A DNA stretch of 12,301 nt from Verrucomicrobiota bacterium (GTDB lineage: Bacteria; Verrucomicrobiota; Verrucomicrobiia; Chthoniobacterales; UBA10450). A program made the translations under genes and the position numbers. Positions 173 through 11,906 of the stretch are shown here, piece by piece. The stretch is from assembly GCA_003219995.1 (NCBI GenBank), contig QHRC01000068.1:12401-24701 (forward strand), in the 5' to 3' direction. The notes beneath the pieces were generated by a model, which saw nothing but the letters and a program-made list of their open reading frames with translations, did no database searches and was not told the DNA's origin. Every line of letters starts with the position of its first letter. Positions within the stretch are counted from its first letter, which is position 1.

Positions 173-1645
173 TCAGTTTCCGTTCGGGCTGGCGGGCAAC
201 ATGACGCTCACCAGCGTGCCGTGTGATGTCGAATCGATGTCGACGCGGCCGTTGTGATCGAAGACGGTGCGCTTGACGATGGGAAGGCCAAGTCCCATTC
301 CACGCGGCTTCGTTGTGCAAAATGGCGAAAAGATTTTGTCCTTCAAATCGGGCGCGATCCCCTTGCCGTTGTCGCGGATGGTCACGATGACGCCGCTGGC
401 GCGTTTGCCTTCGCGAATCGGTTTCGCGGCTAGGCTAATACGCGGTTTGGTCCGTCCCGAAAGCGCTTCAGCTGCGTTGGCGACGAGATGTGCGAAGGCC
501 TCGGCCAGCGCTGTTTCGTCACCCAGCACTTTCGGCAGATCGTCCGACAGAGAAGTTTCAACCGCCAACCCGTTTGTCGGGCCGAGGCGATGGCGCGCGA
601 TCTCGATCGCTTTTTTCACAGGCTTGCGCACGTCAATTGGTTTAAACACGAGCTCCGGCGGATGCGCAAAGTTGTTGATTTGGGTGATGATCTTATCAAG
701 CCGGTCGATCTCGCGGACAACGATTTCGTTGAAATCTTTTCGAAAATCGGCGTCGTCAAATCGCTCGGGAAGAAGTTGGGCGAAGGTTTTAATCGCAACC
801 AGCGGATTGCGAATTTCGTGAGACATGCTGGCGGCCAAGTCTGTCCAAAAGGCGGCGCGATCGAGGAGGGTTTGCTTTTCACGCAAAGTTTCCTCGGCGG
901 TGAGATCGTGGACGACAGCGACCGCGCCGAGAGGCGTGTCTTCGCTCATCAGCCGGCGTGTCTCGACCGCGAGCGATCGGCGCGTCTTATTGTCGATCCA
1001 TTGTAACGGGGGTAGAGTGGCTTTTGAGTCGAGCGTCTCACGAAGAGATGCACCGAGCCTGCTTCCTGCAGATTCGATCGGCTTGTTCAGGACATCCTTA
1101 CTCGACAATCCCAAAATCTGTTCGGCGGTGGGATTGAACCAACGAACGATGGCGTTTTCATCGGTCGCGACGATTCCCGGCGGGATTGATTTGAGCAGGG
1201 TCTCAGCGAGGGTTTTTTGCAGGGTGATTTCCTCGGAAAGAAGCGCGTTTTCGAGGACAGTCGAAACATGCTCCGCGAGAATCATTAGTCCTTCGAGGTC
1301 GGCATACTCAAAGCGCTGCCCGGTCAGGCGATGACCAAAGAAGAGCCACCCGATAATTTGGCCACGCGCATAGAGCGGCAAGATCACTTCCGCGCCGAAA
1401 GTGTCGAGCGCACGGCGCAGAAGGGATCGCTGGGCTCGGTCGGGCGTTTGCGCGAGATTCGCGCGGGAGATCAAATGGGCGTGGAGCTCAAACCAGCGCA
1501 CCAGCGGGTCGCGTTCGCCAAATTCAATCTCGTTCGTGTCCGGCAAACAGCGCAAGCCGGCCCGCAGTCGATAACGATCGCCGTTTCGAATTTTTGAAAA
1601 AATTCCGACCCGCGTCACACTCGCGGCATCAGCGACGCTTTCCAC
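173..1645 (-). CDS. GAF-PAS sensor histidine kinase (probably the 3' part of a broken receiver-kinase gene)
   Basis: This is the cytosolic kinase half of a two-component sensor. Counting from the GTG at 1645, a GAF domain spans roughly residues 1-135 and a PAS domain about 145-250. A HisKA dimerisation domain carries the phospho-accepting His276 in SHEIRNPL. A GHKL ATPase domain has N-box Asn390, the G1 box DNGKGI (425-430) and the G2 box GMGLGL (449-454). No membrane segment is visible. Two starts are possible. GTG at 1645 keeps more of the GAF domain. GTG at 1618 overlaps the upstream stop as GTGA, a classic reinitiation arrangement, but cuts into the GAF. The GAF domain lacks its first helix here, and that helix is encoded in the other frame at the end of the preceding receiver gene. 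The HisKA region closely resembles that of the kinase at 2163-2858, so the two are paralogues. Which promoter or effector it serves cannot be told. Confidence 0.85.
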   Translation of the reverse strand: MESVADAASVTRVGIFSKIRNGDRYRLRAGLRCLPDTNEIEFGERDPLVRWFELHAHLISRANLAQTPDRAQRSLLRRALDTFGAEVILPLYARGQIIGWLFFGHRLTGQRFEYADLEGLMILAEHVSTVLENALLSEEITLQKTLAETLLKSIPPGIVATDENAIVRWFNPTAEQILGLSSKDVLNKPIESAGSRLGASLRETLDSKATLPPLQWIDNKTRRSLAVETRRLMSEDTPLGAVAVVHDLTAEETLREKQTLLDRAAFWTDLAASMSHEIRNPLVAIKTFAQLLPERFDDADFRKDFNEIVVREIDRLDKIITQINNFAHPPELVFKPIDVRKPVKKAIEIARHRLGPTNGLAVETSLSDDLPKVLGDETALAEAFAHLVANAAEALSGRTKPRISLAAKPIREGKRASGVIVTIRDNGKGIAPDLKDKIFSPFCTTKPRGMGLGLPIVKRTVFDHNGRVDIDSTSHGTLVSVMLPASPNGN

Positions 1646-2166
1646 AACGCTGGGTCGACATTGTCGAACCGGCGGAATACACGGGGAAAGCGCAACAAAG
1701 GTAACGAAGGCATTCCGTAACGATCGGTCACAACGTCGCTTCTGGGTGGCTGGGTGAGAGTAGCACCGCTGGATTCTTCGCGCAGTTCCCGATTGTCCTG
1801 CAAAACTTTTAAGTAGTCGAACGCCCGTCCGACCAACGCCTGGAAGTGAGGCCGATCAAGCTGGAGGTCATCGGCTGCGTAAATTCCGCTTTGCTCGGCT
1901 TCGCGCAAAGGTTCGGAGCGCGCTATGCCCAGCGCGATGATCAGGACCTCCGGCCAGTCTTTTTGAATTTGATCGAGCAAATCGCGACTTTCCTTCGCGC
2001 GGAGATCTATCATGAGCAGCGCGGGATTGCTCTGCTGCAAGACGGCATCGAGACGACTCGCATCCGACACATGACGCGTTTGCGCGATCGTGCGCAGGAA
2101 CGCTTTCACCCGCCGCACGAGATCGGGATCCTGCGTGTATAAAATGCAGACCGGCGAAGAAATCAT
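1615..2166 (-). CDS. Degenerate receiver-domain protein, probably the 5' part of the following kinase gene
   Basis: Residues 5 to about 120 have the alternating strand/helix pattern of a CheY-like receiver. The putative phospho-acceptor Asp is kept in 'LLMIDLRAKES'. The acidic pair is weakened (YTQDPD). The conserved Thr/Ser is replaced (IIALG), and the usual Lys-Pro reads Asp-Arg-Pro (LQLDRP). It is therefore likely a pseudo-receiver or a poorly phosphorylated one. There is no DNA-binding output domain. The last 25 residues (LPLLRFPRVFRRFDNVD and onward) look like the linker and first helix of a GAF domain, which continues in the next frame in the kinase at 173-1645. This suggests a former receiver-GAF-PAS-kinase fusion. 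The start ATG at 2166 overlaps the stop of the upstream kinase as ATGA, so translation is probably coupled. Confidence 0.75.
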   Translation of the reverse strand: MISSPVCILYTQDPDLVRRVKAFLRTIAQTRHVSDASRLDAVLQQSNPALLMIDLRAKESRDLLDQIQKDWPEVLIIALGIARSEPLREAEQSGIYAADDLQLDRPHFQALVGRAFDYLKVLQDNRELREESSGATLTQPPRSDVVTDRYGMPSLPLLRFPRVFRRFDNVDPALWKASLMPRV

Positions 2167-2858
2167 GCCGCTGCCACCTTGCTGTCAAAGCGAACAAGCG
2201 GCAGCAGAATGTGAAACGCGGTGCCCTTCTTGAGTTCGCTCTCCACTTCGATTTGGCCGCCATGTTCCTGAATTATTCCGTGGACGACCGACAAGCCCAA
2301 GCCGGTGCCGTAATCTTTTGTGCTAAAAAAAGGATCGAAAACGTGGGGAATATCGTCGCCGCGAATTCCTTCGCCTGTATCGCGGACAGTGATACGAAGG
2401 ACTTCCTGCGCCTCACCATTGCCATGTCCAATCGCGGTCACCCATTCCTCGTCGTTTCCGATCTGTGTGCTTACACTCAGCTCGCCGCCGCGCTTCATCG
2501 CGTCCATGGCGTTGATGAAAAAGTTGAGGAAAACCTGCTCCAGCTGGTCGCCATCGGCGCGTATTGTATCAACATTAGCCTCCCAGGAACGAGTTAATTT
2601 GATGTCCTTCTGATACAACCGATGGCCGACGAGCAGGAGCGATTTTTCCAAAACCTCATGCACGTGCATTGGCTTGAGAATCGGTTTGGCGGGGCGGGCG
2701 AAGCGGAGCAGCTGGTTGACCAGCGAATCGATCCGATCGATTTCGTGACCGATCAGGTTTGAGAATGTTTCCCGAAAATCGGAATCCTGATATCGCTCGG
2801 GCAGCAGTTGCGCGAAGGTCTTGATCGAGACAAGCGGATTTTTGATTTCGTGCGCCAT
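2163..2858 (-). CDS. Histidine kinase core (HisKA-HATPase), frameshifted 3' part of the membrane sensor kinase
   Basis: This frame encodes the catalytic half of a histidine kinase. The H-box is MAHEIKNPL with His3 as phospho-acceptor. The N-box has Asn116 in FLNFFINAMDAM, the G1 box is DTGEGI (160-165) and the G2 box GTGLGL (184-189). The ATG at 2858 is simply the Met of the H-box. Coding similarity extends upstream in the same frame as DRLASLGTLSAG to about position 2897. That is the normal sequence before an H-box, so 2858 is not the original start. The sensory half lies in another frame at 2753-4636 and overlaps this one by 106 nt. The stop overlaps the start of the receiver gene (ATGA). 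If translated alone from 2858, it would lack the first dimerisation helix turns and all sensing domains. Confidence 0.8.
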   Translation of the reverse strand: MAHEIKNPLVSIKTFAQLLPERYQDSDFRETFSNLIGHEIDRIDSLVNQLLRFARPAKPILKPMHVHEVLEKSLLLVGHRLYQKDIKLTRSWEANVDTIRADGDQLEQVFLNFFINAMDAMKRGGELSVSTQIGNDEEWVTAIGHGNGEAQEVLRITVRDTGEGIRGDDIPHVFDPFFSTKDYGTGLGLSVVHGIIQEHGGQIEVESELKKGTAFHILLPLVRFDSKVAAA

Positions 2859-4636
2859 CCCGGCGGAAAGCGTGCCCAGACTGGCGAGACGATCGCTTCG
2901 GTCAATACCATCAATGCGCCGAGGACTTGTCGATCTTCGCCGCGAAAGATAGACGTGCTGGCGCGAACGATGACGCCTCGATCATCGAAGCGCAGGACAA
3001 GCTCGTTATTTTCCTGGCTCTCACCGGTTCGCAATGTGTCGCGCAATGCGTCTCGAAGCGCTTCCGGAAGTTCATCGATGGCGTGATCGAGAATGTCCCG
3101 CGAATTCAATTCTGTGATCTGCCCGGCCTCGTTGTTGAAAACAGTAATGCGTTCGTCAATCCCCGCAGCGATCACGCCCGTAGTAAGGTTTTCGAGCAAT
3201 GTTTCGTTGTAGATCTTTGCGTTTTGCACTTCGGTAAACAGCTTCGCGTTTTCGATGGCGACGGCCAGCTGACCGCAGAGAACCTGGAGCGCGTTCTGCT
3301 CCACGCTGCCATAAATCCTTCCGGAAAGGCGTGAACCGAGAAGCATTACGCCCTCGAGTTGATCGCGCGCGAAAATTCCCATCACAACTGCCACATTCAG
3401 GTGGCGCATTTGGTTGATCACGCGATGCAGCTCTGGCGTGGGCCGGATGCGATGCAACTCGTCGAGCACGATTGGTTGGCCCGAACTACAGAGATAGGAC
3501 AGAAGGGGGTGGCCTTTGGGAAGGTCAATCTGGCTCTCGCGCGTGGGCGGGGGATGCTGCTGCGCAAAAACATCCTTCTGCGCGAGCAGAATCAAAACCC
3601 GATCCGTACCTACAGCCTGCGCGATCGTCCCGGCGAAGCGTTCAAGGAGTTCGCGTAACGTCGTGACTGATTTTAGAATCGCCGCGGCCTGATTCATCGT
3701 CGCTTGGAAGTCGAGGCGGCGCGTACCGACGAAAAGCCGGTCCGCTAGGCGCTGAGAAATTCCCCGCGCCGGCGCCATCGCAAACGCCACAACAAGCGCA
3801 GCGATAATGTGTGCTAATGACGTCGACTCGTTCGGCGGCAGCGGGGCGAAAACGTTGAACGCGAGCCACCAGACAAAACCGTAGAGGAGAAGAAGATAGA
3901 CAACGAGGAGTACGTAAGCCATCGCATGTCGGAGGAAATAGCCCACCTCCAAGATCTTCCGGGTGGCGATCCCGTACGCGATTATGAGGCTAAAGACGAT
4001 AATGCGAAACGGCGCGAACCAGATCGCTCGTGATGACCCAAAAAAGTATTCGAGAACAAACGAGAGCAGCAGCGCGATCGCCATCGCGGCAACTGCGCCG
4101 ATAAGGATGAACGCGAGCTCGACATGCTCACCGCCCGTGGTTTTCCTCAGGTCGCGCCAATAGCTGATGATCAGCGCGACGAATGCGAGAACAAAATAGA
4201 CTGCATAAAGGTAAACCGCCGGCCCATAAATCGGACTCGGTGTGCCGCCCGCCTGGTGGGGCATCTCCGCGCCTCGCAAAAACGCGTTTGTCTGGCAGAG
4301 GGCGACGATGGCGATGGTGAGAATGAGCCAAACGCGAGAATGGCGAAGAAGGCCGCGCCAATCCGGCTGCTTTTGCCTGACTGAAAGGCGCAGAAGGTTG
4401 AGTACCGCGAGGTAAACCGCCCCGCTAGCCGAAGCTTGTCGGATGGCGAATTCTGCGACCTGCGGACCGCTGGCAACGAATGCAAGGTACAAGCTGCCGA
4501 GCCATGCGTCGATAGTTACCGAAAGTAGCAAAAAGCATTGGTTGGCCATCCTATGCCGATTCGCTTGGAATACGACGAGACCAAGGGCGAACTGAAAGAT
4601 CAGCGCCCCGAGAGTTGGAATCGTAACGTTCGTCAT
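2753..4636 (-). CDS. Membrane sensor kinase, N-terminal 7TM-like/GAF/PAS part (frameshifted before the kinase core)
   Basis: Residues 1 to about 290 contain some 8-9 hydrophobic segments (about 9-25, 33-55, 64-84, 101-117, 139-159, 173-196, 207-222, 238-261, 272-288). This resembles the multi-pass N-terminal region of 7TM-type histidine kinases such as the PrsK family. A GAF domain (about 320-465) and a PAS domain (about 475-578, ending GALMVLTE) follow. After about residue 581 the frame turns into an Arg/Ser/Pro-rich tail unlike any kinase, while the true kinase sequence continues in the -1 frame. The original protein was probably about 800 residues. The ATG at 4636 is the first plausible start; no clear Shine-Dalgarno is seen. 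It lies 61 nt after the ketoacyl synthase stop on the same strand, suggesting one transcript. The signal it senses is unknown. Confidence 0.8.
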   Translation of the reverse strand: MTNVTIPTLGALIFQFALGLVVFQANRHRMANQCFLLLSVTIDAWLGSLYLAFVASGPQVAEFAIRQASASGAVYLAVLNLLRLSVRQKQPDWRGLLRHSRVWLILTIAIVALCQTNAFLRGAEMPHQAGGTPSPIYGPAVYLYAVYFVLAFVALIISYWRDLRKTTGGEHVELAFILIGAVAAMAIALLLSFVLEYFFGSSRAIWFAPFRIIVFSLIIAYGIATRKILEVGYFLRHAMAYVLLVVYLLLLYGFVWWLAFNVFAPLPPNESTSLAHIIAALVVAFAMAPARGISQRLADRLFVGTRRLDFQATMNQAAAILKSVTTLRELLERFAGTIAQAVGTDRVLILLAQKDVFAQQHPPPTRESQIDLPKGHPLLSYLCSSGQPIVLDELHRIRPTPELHRVINQMRHLNVAVVMGIFARDQLEGVMLLGSRLSGRIYGSVEQNALQVLCGQLAVAIENAKLFTEVQNAKIYNETLLENLTTGVIAAGIDERITVFNNEAGQITELNSRDILDHAIDELPEALRDALRDTLRTGESQENNELVLRFDDRGVIVRASTSIFRGEDRQVLGALMVLTEAIVSPVWARFPPGWRTKSKIRLSRSRPSRNCCPSDIRIPIFGKHSQT

Positions 4637-4697: not shown

Positions 4698-5942
4698 TCA
4701 GTTCAATTCGACGCGATTCACAATCATTGTGCTTGCGCTTCCTCCGAGACCTCGGACGTTAATAAGAGCGCAGTCGACCTTAGTTTTCCGCGCACGGTTT
4801 GGCACGAAATCCAGATCACAATCTGGATCTTCGACTTCGTAATTGGCGGTGGGAGCGATTACTTGGTCGCGGATGCTCAGAGCGCAAGAAGCCAGCTGAA
4901 AAGGGCCCGCGGCCGCTAATGGATTTCCGGTTACTCCTTTGATTGAGCTAACCGGCACAGAGTACGCGTAATCGCCAAAGACTTTTCTAATAGCATCGAC
5001 CTCGACCGCATCGAGAATCGGATGGCCGGGCCCATATGCCGAAATGTAGTCAATTTCGGCCGCTTCAGCACCAGCATTCGCCAGTGCGAGCGTCATTGAA
5101 TCCTCGAGGCCGGAACCGGCCCTCGTAGCATCTCGATCACGTCGCTTGCCGTAGCCGCAAATTTCTAAGTAAATCCGCGCACCTCTCGCCGTCGCGCGCT
5201 CCAAATTTTCAAGTATGAAAATGGCGGCACCTTCCGATATCACGCCAGAATCCCTGCAAAGATCGAATGGCCTGCTCGCAGTTTCCGGTTCGCCATTACG
5301 GTAGGAGCTCAGTCCACTCGCAATAAAGCTTGCCATTACCAACGGTGTGATCGGAGCGTCCGTGCCTCCTGCGATTGCGATTTCAGCCTCGCCTAAGCGA
5401 ATCATTGCTGCAGCGTCGGCGACACCGTCCAGTCCTGAGGGACACGCCGAGGTAACGGTCGCGGCGTTAGCGCAGGCCCCGATTCGGTCGGCGACCACAT
5501 TGGCTGGCGCTTGTGGCATCGACGCCACTGATGTGGTCGGAGCCACACGGTTGGGCCCCGTATCGCGCACCGCGTGAAGTGCGCGCTCGAGCACGTCCAT
5601 GGAGTTCATACTCACGCCGATCACAACTGGCGTTGGACTGGGTAATTCAAGCTTGAGTGGATCCAGCCCGGCATCTTTTAATGCCATCATCGTGGCCGCA
5701 TAGGCAAGTTGCGTATGCCGCGCCATCCGTTTCGGTTTTAATTCGGGCTCGATGTATTCAAGTGGATCGAATCCCTTTACCTCGCCGGCGATGCGGCTCT
5801 TGAGTTCCGAGGCATCGAACAATGTGATCGGGCCGATGCCGCTGCGCCCGGCCAGAATCGATTCCCAAAATGGCTCAACCCCGATTCCGTTCGGGGCTAA
5901 AATTCCCATACCGGTAATGACGACACGGTTGCGCTTGATCAT
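4698..5942 (-). CDS. Beta-ketoacyl-ACP synthase (FabF-like) lacking both active-site histidines
   Basis: This is a full-length (414 residues) KAS I/II-fold condensing enzyme. It opens with the typical RVVITGMG at residues 6-13, and the nucleophilic Cys167 lies in TSACPSGLDG. Lys335 in SSIKG and a C-terminal glycine-rich loop (GLGG, 398-401) are also kept. The two catalytic histidines of this fold are absent. The HGTSTP-equivalent reads YGPGHP with Tyr303, and the TGH-equivalent reads TGN with Asn340. These numbers match E. coli FabF His303 and His340 by coincidence of length. With cysteine but no histidines, acyl transfer onto Cys is plausible and decarboxylative condensation doubtful; this is inference, by analogy with non-elongating KS domains. 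No acyl carrier protein or partner synthase lies nearby; the downstream neighbours are sensor kinases. The start at 5942 gives the standard N-terminus. Confidence 0.88.
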   Translation of the reverse strand: MIKRNRVVITGMGILAPNGIGVEPFWESILAGRSGIGPITLFDASELKSRIAGEVKGFDPLEYIEPELKPKRMARHTQLAYAATMMALKDAGLDPLKLELPSPTPVVIGVSMNSMDVLERALHAVRDTGPNRVAPTTSVASMPQAPANVVADRIGACANAATVTSACPSGLDGVADAAAMIRLGEAEIAIAGGTDAPITPLVMASFIASGLSSYRNGEPETASRPFDLCRDSGVISEGAAIFILENLERATARGARIYLEICGYGKRRDRDATRAGSGLEDSMTLALANAGAEAAEIDYISAYGPGHPILDAVEVDAIRKVFGDYAYSVPVSSIKGVTGNPLAAAGPFQLASCALSIRDQVIAPTANYEVEDPDCDLDFVPNRARKTKVDCALINVRGLGGSASTMIVNRVELN

Positions 5943-5968
5943 GTTAGAGAGATATACAAAACGATAAA

Positions 5969-6009
5969 CAGGCCGCGCCGGCGCCGAAAGAGAACGATCT
6001 CGCGGCCTG
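5969..6009. repeat. 9-bp perfect inverted repeat in the synthase leader
   Basis: CAGGCCGCG (5969-5977) and CGCGGCCTG (6001-6009) are exact reverse complements separated by 23 nt. The repeat ends 27 nt upstream of the ketoacyl synthase ATG. It could be a protein-binding operator or a leader-RNA stem. There is no adjacent U-run on the synthase-proximal side, so a terminator is unlikely. Confidence 0.4.
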
Positions 6010-6075
6010 CGATGGTCGAAAAAGCCTTTTAGATATTAGGCGCTGGGGGTTAAGGGCGGCCACGAGCAGATCACA

Positions 6076-6234
6076 ATGCATTCTAAGCACTACATTAAAT
6101 CCAGTCATTATATTTTTTTAGGACTCGGAGCCGACTTATTCACCGAATCCGCAAGTTATTCACAAATTGCAGCTTGCGCGCCAGCCGAAACTATTTCACT
6201 GTCTGGCGGCCGAATTTTTTTTTATCATTCGTAA
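6076..6234 (+). CDS. Possible 52-codon small ORF, unrecognised
   Basis: An ATG at 6076 opens 52 sense codons ending in TAA at 6232-6234. The predicted peptide begins MHSKHYIKSS, has a central FTESASYSQIAACAPAE stretch and ends GGRIFFYHS. It lies 66 nt upstream of the receiver-kinase gene on the same strand. There is no good Shine-Dalgarno, and the frame crosses both TTATTCAC words. An open frame of this length can arise by chance. I list it because a LanB-like enzyme lies two genes downstream and such enzymes act on short Ser/Thr/Cys-containing peptides. No family is recognised. Confidence 0.15.
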   Translation: MHSKHYIKSSHYIFLGLGADLFTESASYSQIAACAPAETISLSGGRIFFYHS

Positions 6235-6300
6235 ATACTTTTCTTCCCGGCACTTTGCTATGCGGCACGCCCCTAGCTTCTATCCGATCCCAGTCCGGTC

Positions 6301-7452
6301 ATGACTGTCTCCACCGATCTGCCGCAAATCCTCGTTATCGATGACGAAGTGGGCCCCCGCGAGAGCCTGCGGATGCTATTGAAGCCGGACTATCAGGTGC
6401 ACACCGCGGATTGCGTCGAAGCGGGAATGAAACTCCTGAAAGAGAAACAACCCGACACAATCGTGATGGACATCCGGATGCCCGGCATCACCGGAATCGA
6501 TGGTTTACGCAAGATTCGCGAGATCGATCCTCATCTTTCCGTTATCATGTTGACCGGCTTCGGTGCCCTGGAAACTGCCAAGGAAGCGCTCCGACTTGGA
6601 GCCAACGATTACATTAGCAAGCCTTTTGACGCGGGCGAAATGCGTGACATCATCGGGCGCAATGTCGAACGCACGCGCCTCCACCGGACAAGTGAACATG
6701 CGGCAGCCGAGGTCAAGGAATTAAATAATCGCTTGCGCAAAGAACTGGCGCGGAAGGAGCGGCTGGCCTCCCTCGGCCAGGCTTCAGCCGAGTTCGTTCA
6801 TGATTTGGGCAATCCGCTCACCATCGTTTGGGGTTACGTGCAACTTCTCGCCAAAAAGCTGGAACGTTCCGAAAACGGAGGTGCCACACACAATGCCACT
6901 TCGATTAAAGAACTGAATATCATCGAGCAAAATGTGAGGCTTTGCCGTGAGCTTCTGACCATGTGGCAAAGTTATGGCAGCGCCGAAGCGTTACCGCATA
7001 AGCAGATTTCGGTCTCCACCGTCCTCCGTGAAGTGATCAAAGCAGTCGATGCGCTGGCGACGCAGAGCGGAGTCGATCTGCAGTCCAATATCTGTGAGCA
7101 CGCGTGCACGGTTCTTGGGGACCCTGTCCAAATTAAACGCGCCATCCAGAACGTGATCATCAATGCGGTGCAGGCGTGTGCCGAAAGAAAAGGCTCGGTT
7201 CTGGTCACCTGCACGCAAAAAGAGTTTTACGTCGACATTCGAATCGAAGACGACGGTTCTGGAATCACACCGACGCAGATAAGCAGGATTTTCGATCCCT
7301 ATTTTACGACCAAACAAGGAAAGAGCGGCACAGGGCTCGGTCTATACATTACCCAAAAAGTTCTGGAAGATCACAACGGCTCGATCAAGGTCGATAGTAC
7401 GCCGGGTCGCCGAACGACTTTCACCATTCGCTTGCCGCTTGTGAATAGCTGA
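6301..7452 (+). CDS. Receiver-histidine kinase (response regulator with C-terminal kinase)
   Basis: This cytosolic two-component protein has an N-terminal receiver and a C-terminal kinase. In the receiver (about 8-122), Asp14/Asp15, phospho-acceptor Asp57 (MDIRMPG), Thr85 and Lys107 (SKPF) are all present, so it should be phosphorylatable. A charged helical linker (about 130-155) leads to a HisKA-type domain with His167 in FVHDLGNPL. An ATPase domain follows, with N-box Asn288, G1 DDGSGI (317-322) and G2 GTGLGL (343-348). No sensor or membrane segment exists, so input probably comes from another kinase phosphorylating the receiver. The broken kinases on the opposite strand are candidates by proximity only. 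Unlike those two, this gene is intact. The ATG at 6301 sits ten residues before the first receiver strand; no clear Shine-Dalgarno precedes it. It may be co-transcribed with the LanB-like gene 62 nt downstream. Confidence 0.9.
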   Translation: MTVSTDLPQILVIDDEVGPRESLRMLLKPDYQVHTADCVEAGMKLLKEKQPDTIVMDIRMPGITGIDGLRKIREIDPHLSVIMLTGFGALETAKEALRLGANDYISKPFDAGEMRDIIGRNVERTRLHRTSEHAAAEVKELNNRLRKELARKERLASLGQASAEFVHDLGNPLTIVWGYVQLLAKKLERSENGGATHNATSIKELNIIEQNVRLCRELLTMWQSYGSAEALPHKQISVSTVLREVIKAVDALATQSGVDLQSNICEHACTVLGDPVQIKRAIQNVIINAVQACAERKGSVLVTCTQKEFYVDIRIEDDGSGITPTQISRIFDPYFTTKQGKSGTGLGLYITQKVLEDHNGSIKVDSTPGRRTTFTIRLPLVNS

Positions 7453-7490: not shown

Positions 7491-7517
7491 CACGCGTTTG
7501 GTTTTGCTGAACGCGTG
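7491..7517 (+). promoter_or_regulatory. 8-bp hairpin containing the LanB-like start codon
   Basis: CACGCGTT (7491-7498) and AACGCGTG (7510-7517) are exact reverse complements around an 11-nt loop. The last three bases of the right arm are the GTG start codon of the LanB-like gene. In mRNA this G/C-rich stem would hide the start. Translation may therefore be limited, or helped by ribosomes or a factor opening the stem. There is no U-tract, so it does not look like a terminator of the upstream kinase gene. If translation begins elsewhere, the fold may be incidental. Confidence 0.4.
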
Positions 7518-9938
7518 CCTACTTCGTATCGAGTCGCACCGGTTTTTCTGATTCGGATGGCCGGTGTGCCATTCGAGATCGTTGAACGATTGTGCACGCC
7601 GGCAACTTCAGCAGCCGCGCGCGAGTTGCTTCTTAGGCGCGAGGAATTTTCGAACGCAAAGGCAGAGGTGGAGGAAATTCTGCGGTCCCGCACCCATGGC
7701 CTTTCCAAAGAACTATTTCGCGCCTGGCGCAAAGCGATTCGGTCGGGTACGGTGCCGCCAATAGCTGATCCGCCCTCGCGCGTATTCGCTGCCTGCTGGG
7801 ATGGTGCAGCAAAGCTGGCGGATGCTGAAGCGCACTTCGATCAGTGTCTTCAACGCGAGCTCAAAACTGCGCGCGAGGCTCTGCTCGATTCCGCCCGAAC
7901 GATCTTGCCGCCTTATCTTGTGTTTGCCGCGAAAGGATTGGGTGAACGTCTTTCCAAGCAATTTTCTTCCGGTAGTGGCGCCTTGCCGCCGCGCAACAAA
8001 AATGAGCGTGCACACGAGCGGACAATGGTTTTGTACTTGCAGCGCATTTGCGCGAAGAACGATTCGTTAAGCGCCTTTGGTCCCGGCGGGTGGGGCAAGA
8101 TCGACAAACAGATCACCCTGACTCTGACTCCCGCGCCGGGAATCGCTAAGCGAGAATCTTTTCTCGAGCGCTGGACCGCACATGGCGCAGCTGCAGCACT
8201 GAATGCGGACCCAGATATTCGCGCTGAGCTCTCTCCACGCCTTCATCCAAACGGTCGGCTTGATGGCGAGCAATTTGTCTTCGCCGAAACCGGTGAAACA
8301 CTTCAGCTCGATCAGCAAAGCGTCGCATTGCTTGCCCGCTGTGACGGCGGAACACCCGCGCATTCGCTAGGCGTCGAGATTGAATTGCTCGAACAGTTGG
8401 CGCAGCAGAACATCCTTCGCTGGGAAGTGGAGGTTCCCGCTCTCGAGCCATACGCCTTTGATGTCTTGATCTCGGATATTCTGCGGTGGCGCGATGGGCC
8501 CATTCGAAAACGATGGCTCGACTTGCTTCAACCAATTGCAGGCTCACCCGCCAAATTTGCTGGCGCGGGCGAGACCGATTCGCGCGTTCAGGTCATGGAT
8601 GAAGCGTGCGAGCGCCTCGAGCAGCTCGGCAGCGCGCGCAAAACGTCCGGTCGATTTCTCTATTCCGCGACCAATCCTATTTGCGAAGAATGTTTTCGCG
8701 AATGCGGTTTTTCAATCGGCGAAAACCTCATCAATGAGATCGCGACTGACGCCGCGCCCTGGATTGATTTTTGGCGCGACAACTATGCTTTTGTCGCAGG
8801 CCGCGTCGCCACTGGTTTGCGACAAGTGCTTGACAAGATGTCCGTCAAAAGAGACTTCGCTGTCCCGTTACCCGCGTTTTTGCATGCTTGCGAGACCGCA
8901 AACTTTCCCTTAACCGGACCGGGTCTGGTCGGCCTGGCGCATCGCGCTTTTCAAGAAGTGAAAACGGCTTTTCGCGAGCGCATGAAGCCTCACGCAGATA
9001 AGACTGAGTACAAACTCACGGCTGACGATTGCCACTTTATCCGCGACAATTTTCAATACGAGCGATTCGACGAATACACGTATCCGTCGGCCGATTTACA
9101 GCTCGCGGCGAAATCAATCGAGGCGGTCACGCGTGGCGAATATCAATGGATTCTCGCGGAGCTCCATCCGCCGGTCGCCCTGCTCCACCATGGATTTTAC
9201 TGGTCGTGTCCGGACAAAACAGGACTTTCCCATGCCCTGACCGCGACGATTTTTGGGCAGCCAAATTTTCATTTCGGGATTTTTGCAGCCGATTTCACCG
9301 CCACCACCACCGTGCACCTCTTCGATGCGCCGCCGAGATCCTGCAACTTCGTCGCCCCGCAGCGCGGCCATCCAAATTGGCCGACGGTTCGTCCTGCCGA
9401 AGCCGAAGTTTATGTCGATCAAACGAGCGGTGACGTTTGCCTTCGCAAAATCGTAACAAGCGAATATCTCGGCTCGTTTGCGCGTAACTGGATCATTCCG
9501 CTTGGCTTTCATCCATTTCAATTCGGGATGACGCCGCAGATGCCGCGATTGCGTTGCGGAAAAGTTATCGTCCAGCGCCGCTCCTGGACAATAACGCTGA
9601 ATGAAATCGGAAAAGGCGATTTCACGGGAATTTCGCACGATCTTGTTCTTGCCATTGAACATCTGCGCGTGGAGAGGGATTTGCCGCGCTTTATTTACAT
9701 TCGCCCGACCGAGCACGCGCTTCGACGCAGCGGCGCGGAAGGACGCGATAAGGATACAAAGCCCGTCTTTGTTGATCTTGAGAGTTACCTTTTTCTCGAA
9801 ATCTTCCATCGCTGGCTGACCAAATCGGGCGAGCTTGAAGTGACCGAGATGCTGCCCGATCCGGATCATTTGCTCTGGAAAGAAACGGACGGTCGCCGGA
9901 CCTTCGAGTTGCGTACACTCATTATTCCGCGCTCATGA
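7515..9938 (+). CDS. LanB-like (lantibiotic dehydratase-type) enzyme without elimination domain; PEARL candidate
   Basis: The 807-residue protein matches the glutamylation (N-terminal) part of class I lantibiotic dehydratases. It opens YRVAPVFLIRMAGVPF, the usual start of the family. AKNDSLSAFGPGGWGKI (180-196) fits the conserved 'K.S..F..fG' region. GKVIVQRRSW (682-691) and the end segment LPRFIYIRP (723-731) ... KPVFVDLESYL ... LEVTEMLPDP (775-784) are LanB hallmarks. The roughly 300-residue SpaB_C elimination domain that completes full LanB enzymes (about 1000 residues) is absent. Such short LanB proteins either work with a separate elimination partner or are PEARLs, which use aminoacyl-tRNA to add amino acids to a scaffold peptide. 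No partner or obvious precursor is in the window. A C-x2-C-x3-C cluster (390-397) is notable. The start is GTG at 7515; a stop at 7476-7478 limits the upstream frame. The stop overlaps parA as ATGA. Confidence 0.85.
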   Translation: MPTSYRVAPVFLIRMAGVPFEIVERLCTPATSAAARELLLRREEFSNAKAEVEEILRSRTHGLSKELFRAWRKAIRSGTVPPIADPPSRVFAACWDGAAKLADAEAHFDQCLQRELKTAREALLDSARTILPPYLVFAAKGLGERLSKQFSSGSGALPPRNKNERAHERTMVLYLQRICAKNDSLSAFGPGGWGKIDKQITLTLTPAPGIAKRESFLERWTAHGAAAALNADPDIRAELSPRLHPNGRLDGEQFVFAETGETLQLDQQSVALLARCDGGTPAHSLGVEIELLEQLAQQNILRWEVEVPALEPYAFDVLISDILRWRDGPIRKRWLDLLQPIAGSPAKFAGAGETDSRVQVMDEACERLEQLGSARKTSGRFLYSATNPICEECFRECGFSIGENLINEIATDAAPWIDFWRDNYAFVAGRVATGLRQVLDKMSVKRDFAVPLPAFLHACETANFPLTGPGLVGLAHRAFQEVKTAFRERMKPHADKTEYKLTADDCHFIRDNFQYERFDEYTYPSADLQLAAKSIEAVTRGEYQWILAELHPPVALLHHGFYWSCPDKTGLSHALTATIFGQPNFHFGIFAADFTATTTVHLFDAPPRSCNFVAPQRGHPNWPTVRPAEAEVYVDQTSGDVCLRKIVTSEYLGSFARNWIIPLGFHPFQFGMTPQMPRLRCGKVIVQRRSWTITLNEIGKGDFTGISHDLVLAIEHLRVERDLPRFIYIRPTEHALRRSGAEGRDKDTKPVFVDLESYLFLEIFHRWLTKSGELEVTEMLPDPDHLLWKETDGRRTFELRTLIIPRS

Positions 9939-10753
9939 AAATCGTCGCAATCGCCAACCAAAAAGGCGGCGTAGGCAAGACGACGACCGCCGTGAACCTC
10001 AGTTGCGCGCTGGCCGAGCGCGGTGTGCGCGTTTTACTTATCGATCTAGATCCGCAGGCCAACGCGACAAGCGCGCTTGGCCTGCAGGATCTTGAAGCCG
10101 ATAGTATTTACGATTCGCTCTTGAGCGGCGCTTCCATTGCCGACAAAATTCTGCCCTCCCGGACCAAGCATCTCTTCATTGTTCCGGCGAATCTCGATCT
10201 CGCCGGAGCGGAGGTAGAAATCGCGCGGATGAGCGATCATCTCATGCGCCTGGCGAAGGCGTTGTCGATCTTGCGCACGGACCAGACTTTCGATTTTGTT
10301 CTCCTCGATTGTCCACCCTCGCTCGGCATTCTAATGACGAACGCGCTGGCTGCCGCTGAGGAAATTCTCACGCCAATCCAGTGCGAGTATTTCGCGCTCG
10401 AGGGGATTGTAAAAATCGTTCACGTCGTCGAGCAAGTGCGCGACTCCGGCGCGAACGAACAGGTCGAGATCGGCGGCATTGTCATGACGATGTTCGATAG
10501 CCGCACTAACTTGAGCGCGCAGGTCGTGGCGGAAGTTCGCCAGCATTTTGGCGAGCGCGTTTATCAAACCGTCATCCCGCGCACCGTGCGGTTAAGTGAA
10601 GCCCCAAGTTTTGGTAAATCGATTCTGGAACATGATTCGCACGGAGCGGGAGCGCACGCATATCGCGCCCTCGCCCGCGAATTCATTAAGCGGCACCCAT
10701 CGCCAACCATTGCTCGCGAATCAGGGCGAACACTTGAGTCGGAGATCCTCTGA
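9935..10753 (+). CDS. ParA/Soj-type partition ATPase
   Basis: This is a deviant Walker-type ATPase of the chromosomal ParA/Soj/MinD superfamily; members dimerise on ATP and bind DNA non-specifically to move cargo. Visible features are the deviant Walker A KGGVGKTTT (10-18, signature Lys10 and Lys15), A' motif DLDPQANAT (37-45), LAGAEVEI (89-96) and Walker B LLDCPPSLG with Asp125. Near the end comes RTVRLSEAPSFGKSI, standard for Soj-like proteins. No N-terminal helix-turn-helix is present. ParA genes are normally followed by parB; here the next gene is an unrelated acetyltransferase on the opposite strand. The ATG overlaps the LanB-like stop by ATGA, tying its expression to that enzyme. About 20 residues extend past the usual C-terminus and overlap the convergent gene. 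It may be a cargo-positioning ParA rather than the main chromosome segregation one. Confidence 0.93.
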   Translation: MKIVAIANQKGGVGKTTTAVNLSCALAERGVRVLLIDLDPQANATSALGLQDLEADSIYDSLLSGASIADKILPSRTKHLFIVPANLDLAGAEVEIARMSDHLMRLAKALSILRTDQTFDFVLLDCPPSLGILMTNALAAAEEILTPIQCEYFALEGIVKIVHVVEQVRDSGANEQVEIGGIVMTMFDSRTNLSAQVVAEVRQHFGERVYQTVIPRTVRLSEAPSFGKSILEHDSHGAGAHAYRALAREFIKRHPSPTIARESGRTLESEIL

Positions 10754-11213
10754 AGAGAATTTCCTTTTCGAAAGTCATGCCGATTTTTTCGGCGACGCGC
10801 CGCGACGGAATATTGTCGTAATGAATGAGCGAAATAACGCGCGGAAGTTTCAGGTCGCGAAAAGCGTGATCGCGCACCGCGCGCGCTGCTTCGGTGGTGA
10901 TGCCTTTGTTCCAGTAGTGAGGGTGCAAACGATAACCAATTTCGATGTCGTCACTTTGCTCGATATGCTGGTGATAGAAGCCGCAATAGCCGATCAGCAC
11001 GGCGGTATTGCGGAAGATCATCGCGAAAAGCGAGGGCAATCCACGATTCTGCCAGCCGATTAGTTTGTTAAGAAATTCAAGTGTTTGTTCTCGCGAATAG
11101 ACGCCGAGAGAGAAGCGCATGAAATCCGGGTTCATCATCAACTCGCTCATAAGATCGACGTCTTGCTGCCGGAACGGGCGCAGGATTAATCGGCGGGTTT
11201 CAAGAATGGCCAT
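10686..11213 (-). CDS. GNAT-family N-acetyltransferase, RimJ/RimL type
   Basis: This 175-residue cytosolic acetyl-CoA-dependent acetyltransferase begins ETRRLILRPFRQQD (5-18), the stereotyped opening of the RimJ/RimL branch. IGYCGFYH (a central beta strand), IEIGYRLHPHYWNKGITTEA (motif A region, with the W.KG..TEA acetyl-CoA loop) and NIPSRRVAEKIGM (motif B, 'N..S..v.eK.Gm') follow in order. Members acetylate ribosomal protein N-termini, small amines or antibiotics; the substrate here cannot be inferred. The ATG at 11213 starts five residues before the conserved TRRL. The last 68 nt overlap the 3' end of parA tail to tail. The UdgX gene diverges from it across 51 nt. Confidence 0.9.
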   Translation of the reverse strand: MAILETRRLILRPFRQQDVDLMSELMMNPDFMRFSLGVYSREQTLEFLNKLIGWQNRGLPSLFAMIFRNTAVLIGYCGFYHQHIEQSDDIEIGYRLHPHYWNKGITTEAARAVRDHAFRDLKLPRVISLIHYDNIPSRRVAEKIGMTFEKEILFRGSPTQVFALIREQWLAMGAA

Positions 11214-11264: not shown

Positions 11265-11906
11265 ATGCCAGCGATTGAGAAAGAATATGCGCGCCCGGCT
11301 GCGCCGCCGGCGACATCGAGTTTGAGTGCGACGCGCGCAGCCGCCCGGGATTGCACGGCCTGTCATCTTTACAAACGGGCGACCCAAACCGTCTTCGGCG
11401 AAGGACCAAAACACGCGACGATCATGTTGGTGGGCGAACAACCAGGCGATTCCGAAGATGTGGCCGGAAAACCTTTCGTCGGGCCGGCTGGAAAAATCCT
11501 CGATCGCGCCCTGGCGGAGGCGGGGATCAATCGGAACGAGGTTTACGTCACAAATGCGGTCAAGCATTTCAAATGGGAGCCGCGCGGGAAGCGGCGAATC
11601 CATCAGAAACCCAACTCGCGCGAAATCGCCGCCTGCCGGCCCTGGCTCGAGGCGGAACTGCGTCTTATAAAACCGAAGCTCCTGGTCTGCCTCGGCTCGA
11701 CTGCCGGCCAGACAATTTTCGGTCCATCTTTTCGCGTGACGCGCGAGCGCGGCAAAGTCTTGTCTTCGAAGTTCGCACCAAAAGTGGTGACGACGGTTCA
11801 TCCTTCCTCGTTACTGCGCCAACCGGATGAAATGTCGCGCGACCGCGAGTACGCGCGTTTCGTTGTCGATCTTCGCGTCGCTTTGAAAGCGGCCGGCGAA
11901 GGATAA
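11265..11906 (+). CDS. udgX: UdgX-type uracil-DNA glycosylase (covalent uracil-DNA binder)
   Basis: This 213-residue member of the uracil-DNA glycosylase superfamily lies close to family 4. Four cysteines for a 4Fe-4S cluster are visible: Cys30 and Cys33 (DCTACHLY), Cys124 (AACRPW) and Cys142 (LVCLGS). Motif A is GEQPGDSED (57-65), followed by GKPFVGPAG (68-76). The second motif is HPSSLLR (179-185). The GKRRIH loop (108-113) after the central YVTNAVKH strand is diagnostic for UdgX. In the mycobacterial enzyme the His of that loop attacks the deoxyribose, leaving the protein covalently attached to DNA at the uracil site. His113 is the equivalent here. It probably acts in uracil repair or in flagging uracil-containing DNA. 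The ATG at 11265 is preceded by a weak GGGAA-type ribosome site; about 20 variable residues precede the core. Confidence 0.93.
   Translation: MPAIEKEYARPAAPPATSSLSATRAAARDCTACHLYKRATQTVFGEGPKHATIMLVGEQPGDSEDVAGKPFVGPAGKILDRALAEAGINRNEVYVTNAVKHFKWEPRGKRRIHQKPNSREIAACRPWLEAELRLIKPKLLVCLGSTAGQTIFGPSFRVTRERGKVLSSKFAPKVVTTVHPSSLLRQPDEMSRDREYARFVVDLRVALKAAGEG

Follow-up and report, generated by a model that had tools for sequence, protein, structure and literature searches.

A LanB-like protein with PEARL-type residues in a ketosynthase and 7TM-kinase cassette of Verrucomicrobiota

The locus and its LanB-like protein

We analysed a stretch of 12,301 nucleotides (hereafter the window) of contig QHRC01000068.1 from a Verrucomicrobiota bacterium of the order Chthoniobacterales, whose genome (2.1 Mb, 77 percent complete, 285 contigs) is called G000 in comparisons between genomes. 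The window encodes a LanB-like protein without an elimination domain (7515..9938, plus strand, 807 aa, GTG start), which we take, with a probability of roughly 0.55, to be a ligase of the PEARL (peptide aminoacyl-tRNA ligase) type within a signalling cassette of a ketosynthase-like protein (KS) and a seven-transmembrane (7TM) kinase. The layout of the cassette is divergent, with KS, HK2 and HK1 on the minus strand and RRHK and LanB on the plus strand. RRHK (6301..7452, plus strand, 383 aa), upstream of LanB, is a receiver domain fused to a histidine kinase (PF00072, PF02518), HK2 (2163..4636, minus strand) is a 7TM-GAF-PAS histidine kinase, and HK1 (173..2166, minus strand) joins a receiver-like N-terminus to GAF, PAS and histidine kinase parts. 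Each of these last two is split here into two overlapping open reading frames (ORFs) but forms a single one in relatives (about 840 aa for HK2, 667–669 aa for HK1), and the frame splits (173–4636, minus strand) are either an assembly error or real. Residues 1–235 of HK2 (3932..4636, minus strand) form a 7TM sensor domain that is polymorphic through allele swaps; PF16927 (HisKA_7TM) covers this N-terminal part in three orthologues, above the cut-off in two, and goes undetected by the Pfam scan in the window's own copy.

The KS (4698..5942, minus strand) is FabF-like and keeps the catalytic Cys, with both catalytic His residues replaced by Tyr and Asn. Among rows covering the site the three positions are invariant (Cys in 38/38, Tyr in 38/38 and Asn in 37/37), while two ordinary ketosynthase rows in the same alignment have His where the cassette protein has Tyr and Asn. 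The cassette KS does not have the Cys-His-His set of an elongating ketosynthase (FabF).

The LanB-like protein matches PF04738 (Lant_dehydr_N) at 50.2 bits, for a cut-off of 28, in two stretches, and the Pfam profile scan finds no match to the elimination domain PF14028 (SpaB_C) in its 807 residues or beside it. PF04738 is matched by 45 of 46 LanB family members, with PF14028 absent among the 15 families listed for those 46. No PF14028 is found in 43 of the 44 LanB-bearing genomes, many of which are incomplete; in the remaining one, G325, it lies inside a separate protein (L134:7723-10923), a true full-length class I LanB with PF04738 plus PF14028. Among the folds listed by VIA-align, with unlisted ones remaining possible, that of the LanB-like protein spans the glutamylation module of TbtB, NisB, MibB and GodF. 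The original prediction, made from the window's sequence, was of a LanB-like enzyme lacking the elimination domain, with no elimination partner in view and resembling PEARLs or split dehydratases. Both profile searches bear it out, and the PEARL or split-LanB idea is well supported by the fold, by the lack of an elimination partner and by the PEARL-type residues of the ATP site described below.

When 387 genomes of the phylum were searched strictly for PF04738 (E up to 1e-10), one further full-length class I LanB turned up, in G542. Two distant LanB-type matches proved to be other proteins, one a RapA-type helicase (G372) and one a glycosyltransferase (G306:C16; the ORF scanned was possibly not the ORF matched).

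The upstream GTG start is backed by a YRVAPxFLIR stretch ahead of the alternative start, which is conserved across loci and contains R14, present in 70/70 rows reaching that position; many database records begin 14 codons downstream of the GTG, at a length of about 793. Selection on LanB is purifying, as dN/dS is 0.10–0.17 in four comparisons. The protein is present in 44 of the 83 genomes of the window's family and in 13 of its 14 genera, is absent from all 35 genomes of the genus g163, and occurs in 3 of 288 genomes sampled across the phylum, all three in the same family. LanB is thus found in one family only, within the limits that incompleteness sets to absences in metagenome-assembled genomes, which the named relatives are (assigned to Chthoniobacterales, Spartobacteria or Verrucomicrobia); G293, G326 and G332 are ambiguous. 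The homologue search covered the best 120 of 944 homologues, with distant relatives outside that set. One genome, G327, has a second, partial copy behind the full one (L096:742-5387), with no ParA in the remaining 0.7 kb of the contig.

The residues expected of an ATP site are nearly invariant in an alignment of these relatives, which are 50–99 percent identical. By motif and spacing, D527 (9093..9095, plus strand; 162/162 rows) is the counterpart of TglB Asp542, and E798-x-R800 (9906..9914, plus strand; 161/161 each) is by motif that of TglB Glu801/Arg803; the part of PMC11117183 available to us gives Asp542 and Arg803 (TglB numbering) as ATP-site residues found only in PEARLs. The E-x-H Mg/ATP motif is E549-x-H551 (9159..9167, plus strand; E in 162/163, H in 163/163), and R688 (9576..9578, plus strand; 163/163) falls in a HMMER alignment on TbtB Arg743, which stacks on adenine, if the PDB chain is numbered with an offset of 3 residues. 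In a MAFFT alignment, two full-length LanBs from Verrucomicrobiota have none of E549, H551 and R688; their cells at 798–800, misplaced there by the elimination domains, were left unused. The CCA-binding Tyr-x-x-Arg (Y205 and R208 of BhaBCTrp) is seen as Y174 in 158/163 rows, with Phe in the other five, and as R177 in 163/163, and is also present in the two full-length LanBs, so that it does not discriminate for PEARLs.

A similar signature is found in seven Streptomyces and Kitasatospora relatives, which have D527, H551, R688, E798, R800 and an FGP motif in 7/7, KN(D/E) in 6/7 and E549 in 5/7. The LanB-like protein is 22–26 percent identical to the ten plasmid records listed, and adenylation-domain and MbtH genes adjoin LanB-like enzymes in two of the four such records examined. 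A single run of genes on one Kitasatospora plasmid (L252:11980-20550) combines large hypothetical genes with three annotated as lantibiotic dehydratases, a possible multi-PEARL cluster.

Residues 232–313 (8208..8453, plus strand) form an RRE-like domain that is missing from 7 of 157 full-length relatives in three separate lineages and, judging from these losses, is dispensable in evolution. According to the accessible part of PMC11962472 an RRE-binding segment is dispensable for carrier-peptide PEARLs as well, so that such losses do not discriminate between types of PEARL, and the three natural losses bear on the need of PEARLs for an RRE, a point raised in that source.

We found no conserved short ORF specific to LanB-bearing loci that could encode a carrier peptide, in 33 KS–RRHK gaps and between the other genes of the loci fetched, whose contigs span at most 20 kb and so do not always reach 20 kb to each side. 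The recurrent short ORFs also occur in LanB-free loci or look like translated tRNA, to judge from one of the peptides. Considering the C-termini of RRHK, KS, HK1 and ParA as ligase substrate gave nothing decisive.

Inheritance of the cassette and its ParA neighbour

The genes of the cassette travel together. RRHK is present, always in a genome that also carries LanB, in 42 of the order's 213 genomes, and lies directly upstream of LanB in 42 of 43 genomes whose contig holds that flank (counts of this kind, here and for ParA, include only such genomes); G331, with a broken RRHK and a gap of about 0.8 kb before LanB, is counted as a neighbour. The gene maps of six g163 loci show the genes upstream of the window's HK1 (of GlgC, NYN and LpxD type, with another gene in place of an aldolase-type gene in most) running straight into ParA, with HK1, HK2, KS, RRHK and LanB all missing. 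The g163 rows of the ParA tree form one clade nested within the LanB-bearing rows, so that the HK1-HK2-KS/RRHK-LanB block was most simply lost there. In G320 a C-terminal remnant of RRHK lies beside ParA and LanB is gone (L201:3895-4957), which is an apparent second loss.

A divergent KS-HK2-HK1/RRHK core is also found in G440, G441 and G442 of family f4, with a KS motif of C-W-N or C-W-I and no match to the LanB profile at these loci, and therefore the four-gene core exists without LanB too. These are three of the four f4 genomes whose best KS match was fetched; six other loci around best KS matches, that of the fourth f4 genome, G439, among them, have an ordinary KS and no such kinases. After RRHK all three core loci carry a conserved protein (L244:10475-12910; 811 aa in G440), which has a weak AMP-binding match of 22 bits, below the cut-off.

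The KS and RRHK genes diverge from a promoter region (5943..6300) that contains a conserved TTATTCACA (at 6156) and, 20 bp ahead of it, TTATTCACC, the two forming a DnaA-box-like direct repeat at 6136–6164. TTATTCACA is found in 31 of 33 orthologous KS–RRHK intergenic regions, and once each in contigs of 316 and 357 kb from two relatives, exactly at the KS–RRHK gap; TTWTNCACA sites number 37 in 9.7 kb of gaps, compared to 58 in 629 kb of all loci, gaps included. A replication origin, suggested by the resemblance to DnaA boxes, was rejected, since neither of the two long contigs has a GC skew minimum there.

ParA (9935..10753, plus strand, ATG start, 272 aa) is of the chromosomal type and is followed by two flanking backbone genes assigned by profile scan and by the g163 loci, a GNAT acetyltransferase (10686..11213, minus strand) and a member of the uracil-DNA glycosylase (UDG) family (11265..11906, plus strand), which also follow ParA in g163 where the contig continues. 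The original prediction had drawn attention to the ATGA shared by the LanB stop and the parA start, which is indeed there at 9935–9938, and had asked whether aminoacyl-tRNA chemistry might be joined to ParA. The pair is not confined to one genome: within the window's family, a neighbourhood survey finds ParA directly after LanB in 41 of 42 genomes. This adjacency, together with the 4-nt overlap in 22 of 41 loci, could be taken to mean a functional pair, in which ParA would position the enzyme or its product, or LanB would modify ParA; it also agrees with G306, in which LanB stays beside ParA and different contigs carry RRHK and KS. However, a close ParA match (E up to 1e-60) is present in most of the order (184 of 213 genomes, 44 of 45 genera), LanB in little more than half of one family, so that the two do not co-occur exclusively, and in each of the seven g163 loci fetched ParA is there but RRHK and LanB are not. 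In addition, G327 keeps LanB beside RRHK with ParA on another contig, the gap exceeds 100 nt in 10 of 41 loci, and the ParA C-termini printed are not conserved. As most of the order has ParA, whether LanB is present or not, ParA is unlikely to be LanB's partner, and this pairing is the least probable of the alternatives that we weighed. The joining to ParA is thus not supported; what varies in its presence is the HK1-HK2-KS/RRHK-LanB block, and we take the pairing for conserved gene order. ParA is probably a backbone gene outside the cassette, adjoining it by inheritance, and the case illustrates that conserved adjacency alone should not be taken for a pathway.

Exchange of KS and 7TM alleles

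Several close pairs of genomes diverge jointly in KS and in HK2 residues 1–235 while the remainder of the locus stays alike. For instance, G290 and G295 have identities of 0.75 in KS and 0.55 in the 7TM part compared to 0.95–0.98 elsewhere, and G303 and G305 have 0.68 and 0.41 compared to 0.90–0.97. The corresponding values are 0.69 and 0.42 for G299/G301, 0.68 and 0.44 for G308/G310, and 0.72 and 0.52 for the window's genome and G330, which with G331 of the same genus is 0.86–0.95 alike to the window in LanB, HK1, RRHK, ParA and the rest of HK2. G300 and G303 keep both parts (0.97 each), and G305 is closer to G299 (KS 0.91, 7TM 0.75) than to its close relative G303. The DNA of G290 and G295 is 0.94–0.99 identical up to KS, falls to 0.47–0.77 across KS, the 7TM part and the next 300 bases, and returns to 0.90–0.99 in the remaining HK2 and HK1, giving the block sharp borders. 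The KS and the 7TM part of HK2 are thus exchanged between close relatives as one block of about 2 kb, with some exceptions. A chimeric assembly could mimic one swapped pair, but recurrence in several genera speaks against it. The outcome resembles that at pherotype loci: the gene for an enzyme and the membrane domain of the neighbouring sensor are exchanged jointly against a conserved background. The window's own KS is nearest to those of G013 and G288 (0.77).

Quick trees of 33 genomes (G311 dropped for coverage, G330 left out for want of RRHK) give the same picture. Those of KS and 7TM both join G292, G295, G300, G301 and G303 across two genera (support 98.8 and 99.5), a group that the backbone data reject (p 4e-51), as they do the pair G299/G305 (p 6e-16). 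The backbone instead joins G290, G291, G292 and G295, with a support of only 82, and G299, G300, G301, G303 and G305, with a support of 100; KS and 7TM reject both the former (p 0.013 and 0.017) and the latter (p 0.011 and 0.004). The tested groups were picked after the trees had been seen, and comprise four of the six g155 genomes (G294 is in the tree but outside the group, and G293 is in neither) together with five g156 genomes. LanB follows the backbone and not the KS/7TM alleles, and so may supply a constant step.

Proposed function, alternatives and known systems

The chemistry, substrate, acyl transfer and signalling that we propose are predicted from the genes and residues described above. 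LanB would use ATP to phosphorylate a carboxylate, possibly one linked to the KS, and then couple it to an aminoacyl-tRNA via the amino group of the amino acid, as NRPS (nonribosomal peptide synthetase)-associated PEARL-like enzymes are thought to do, rather than glutamylating Ser or Thr. The KS probably transfers an acyl group, since the acyl-accepting Cys is kept and the two His residues of condensing enzymes are lost. LanB would thus add an amino acid to a small molecule derived from the KS, or else to a carrier whose gene lies at another site. HK2, the 7TM kinase, may respond to the product, or to a ligand related to it, and feed into HK1 and RRHK. More tentatively, and as something possible rather than likely, the cassette could be a new cell–cell signalling system in which the KS-like acyltransferase and the PEARL make a signal of acyl-amino-acid type, the 7TM kinase reads it, and the KS/7TM pairs are pherotype alleles. 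If so, the supply of charged tRNA, and with it the state of translation, would be linked to quorum sensing in uncultivated soil Chthoniobacterales.

Several points weigh against placing a PEARL-type ligase in such a signalling cassette. No substrate, carrier peptide, acyl carrier protein, exporter or DNA-binding response regulator is seen inside the cassette, and the equivalences with TglB and BhaB rest on motif, spacing and published positions, with no characterised PEARL in the alignment. As LanB does not follow the alleles, it need not act on the polymorphic product, and in four pairs (G000/G331, G310/G313, G309/G313 and G327/G328) the swap is uncoupled, with KS differing and 7TM differing less. 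KS and 7TM distances have a partial correlation of 0.42 across 496 pairs, which are not independent, but the measure is unspecific because KS and ParA distances reach 0.45. One deletion event may explain why g163 lacks the block, and this carries less weight than repeated co-loss would; the best KS match in G439 is an ordinary Cys-His-His enzyme with no kinases, and the arrangement in G306 noted above separates LanB from RRHK and KS.

Among the alternatives, it is unlikely, if conceivable, that LanB is a PEARL whose substrate is a ribosomal carrier peptide from a distant gene, with no relation to the kinases and KS. The PEARL residues are present and the PEARLs named in the available part of PMC12945691 use carrier peptides, but LanB is co-inherited with the RRHK, KS and HK genes and two of the four plasmid relatives examined lie in NRPS-type clusters. 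The three kinases, a KS without both His residues and a LanB more variable than RRHK would also suit a plain two-component system for envelope stress or lipid sensing, with the KS a ligand-binding pseudoenzyme and LanB a degenerate passenger. We hold this to be improbable: the LanB ATP-site residues are conserved, its dN/dS is low, and the KS Cys is invariant. More improbable again is that LanB is the glutamylation half of a split class I lanthipeptide dehydratase, with the elimination partner and the precursor encoded at other sites, as the PF04738 match and TbtB-like fold would allow; this reading is set aside by the virtual absence of PF14028, found only in the separate full-length enzyme of G325, and by the retention of E549-x-H551, R688 and E798-x-R800, the first two of which the two full-length LanBs lack, and no precursor ORF is seen in the fetched loci.

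Our literature search found no paper combining Verrucomicrobia with lantibiotic dehydratase, and no description of a KS/7TM-kinase cassette in the titles and abstract openings of the matches listed. The closest parallels for a PEARL-type enzyme without a carrier are the PEARL-like enzymes associated with NRPS or polyketide synthase clusters, such as SnaE of Stackebrandtia, likewise stand-alone PF04738-type proteins annotated as lantibiotic dehydratases and, in the part of PMC11212132 available, with no precursor peptide known. The seven Streptomyces and Kitasatospora homologues aligned share the ATP-site signature of LanB, SnaE itself being outside the alignment. Unlike these enzymes, LanB has sensor kinases and a KS without both His residues as partners instead of NRPS modules, and is conserved across a bacterial family. 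A PEARL-type enzyme thus belongs here to a regulatory cassette that is widely conserved, and not to a sporadic biosynthetic cluster. With the carrier-peptide PEARLs TglB and BhaB/AmmB, as far as PMC11962472, PMC11117183 and PMC12945691 could be consulted, it shares by motif the ATP-GRASP-like residues, the CCA-binding Y-x-x-R and a possibly dispensable RRE, but no carrier peptide gene was found and the cassette is without tailoring enzymes or a protease. It differs from the split LanB glutamylation proteins TbtB and GodF by its PEARL-specific residues, identified by motif, and by having no elimination protein. The neighbouring ParA resembles chromosomal ParA/Soj in its ATPase domain and in being the single match at E 1e-60 in its genome, which has a ParB_N protein on a different contig, but does not lie beside parB.

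For the allelic block the nearest likeness is to the ComQXPA pherotypes, in which, according to the accessible parts of PMC4008528 and PMC4408185, the gene for an enzyme covaries with the membrane portion at the N-terminus of the neighbouring kinase, and the kinase part proper is conserved. The Verrucomicrobiota locus differs in that a KS replaces ComQ/ComX, in having no known signal and no DNA-binding response regulator in the cassette, and in some uncoupled swaps, and it amounts to a KS/7TM-kinase locus with pherotype-like alleles in soil Verrucomicrobiota. A KS-type enzyme that makes a quorum-sensing signal is already known in PpyS, described in the available part of PMC4578411 as having a Cys-His-Asn triad.

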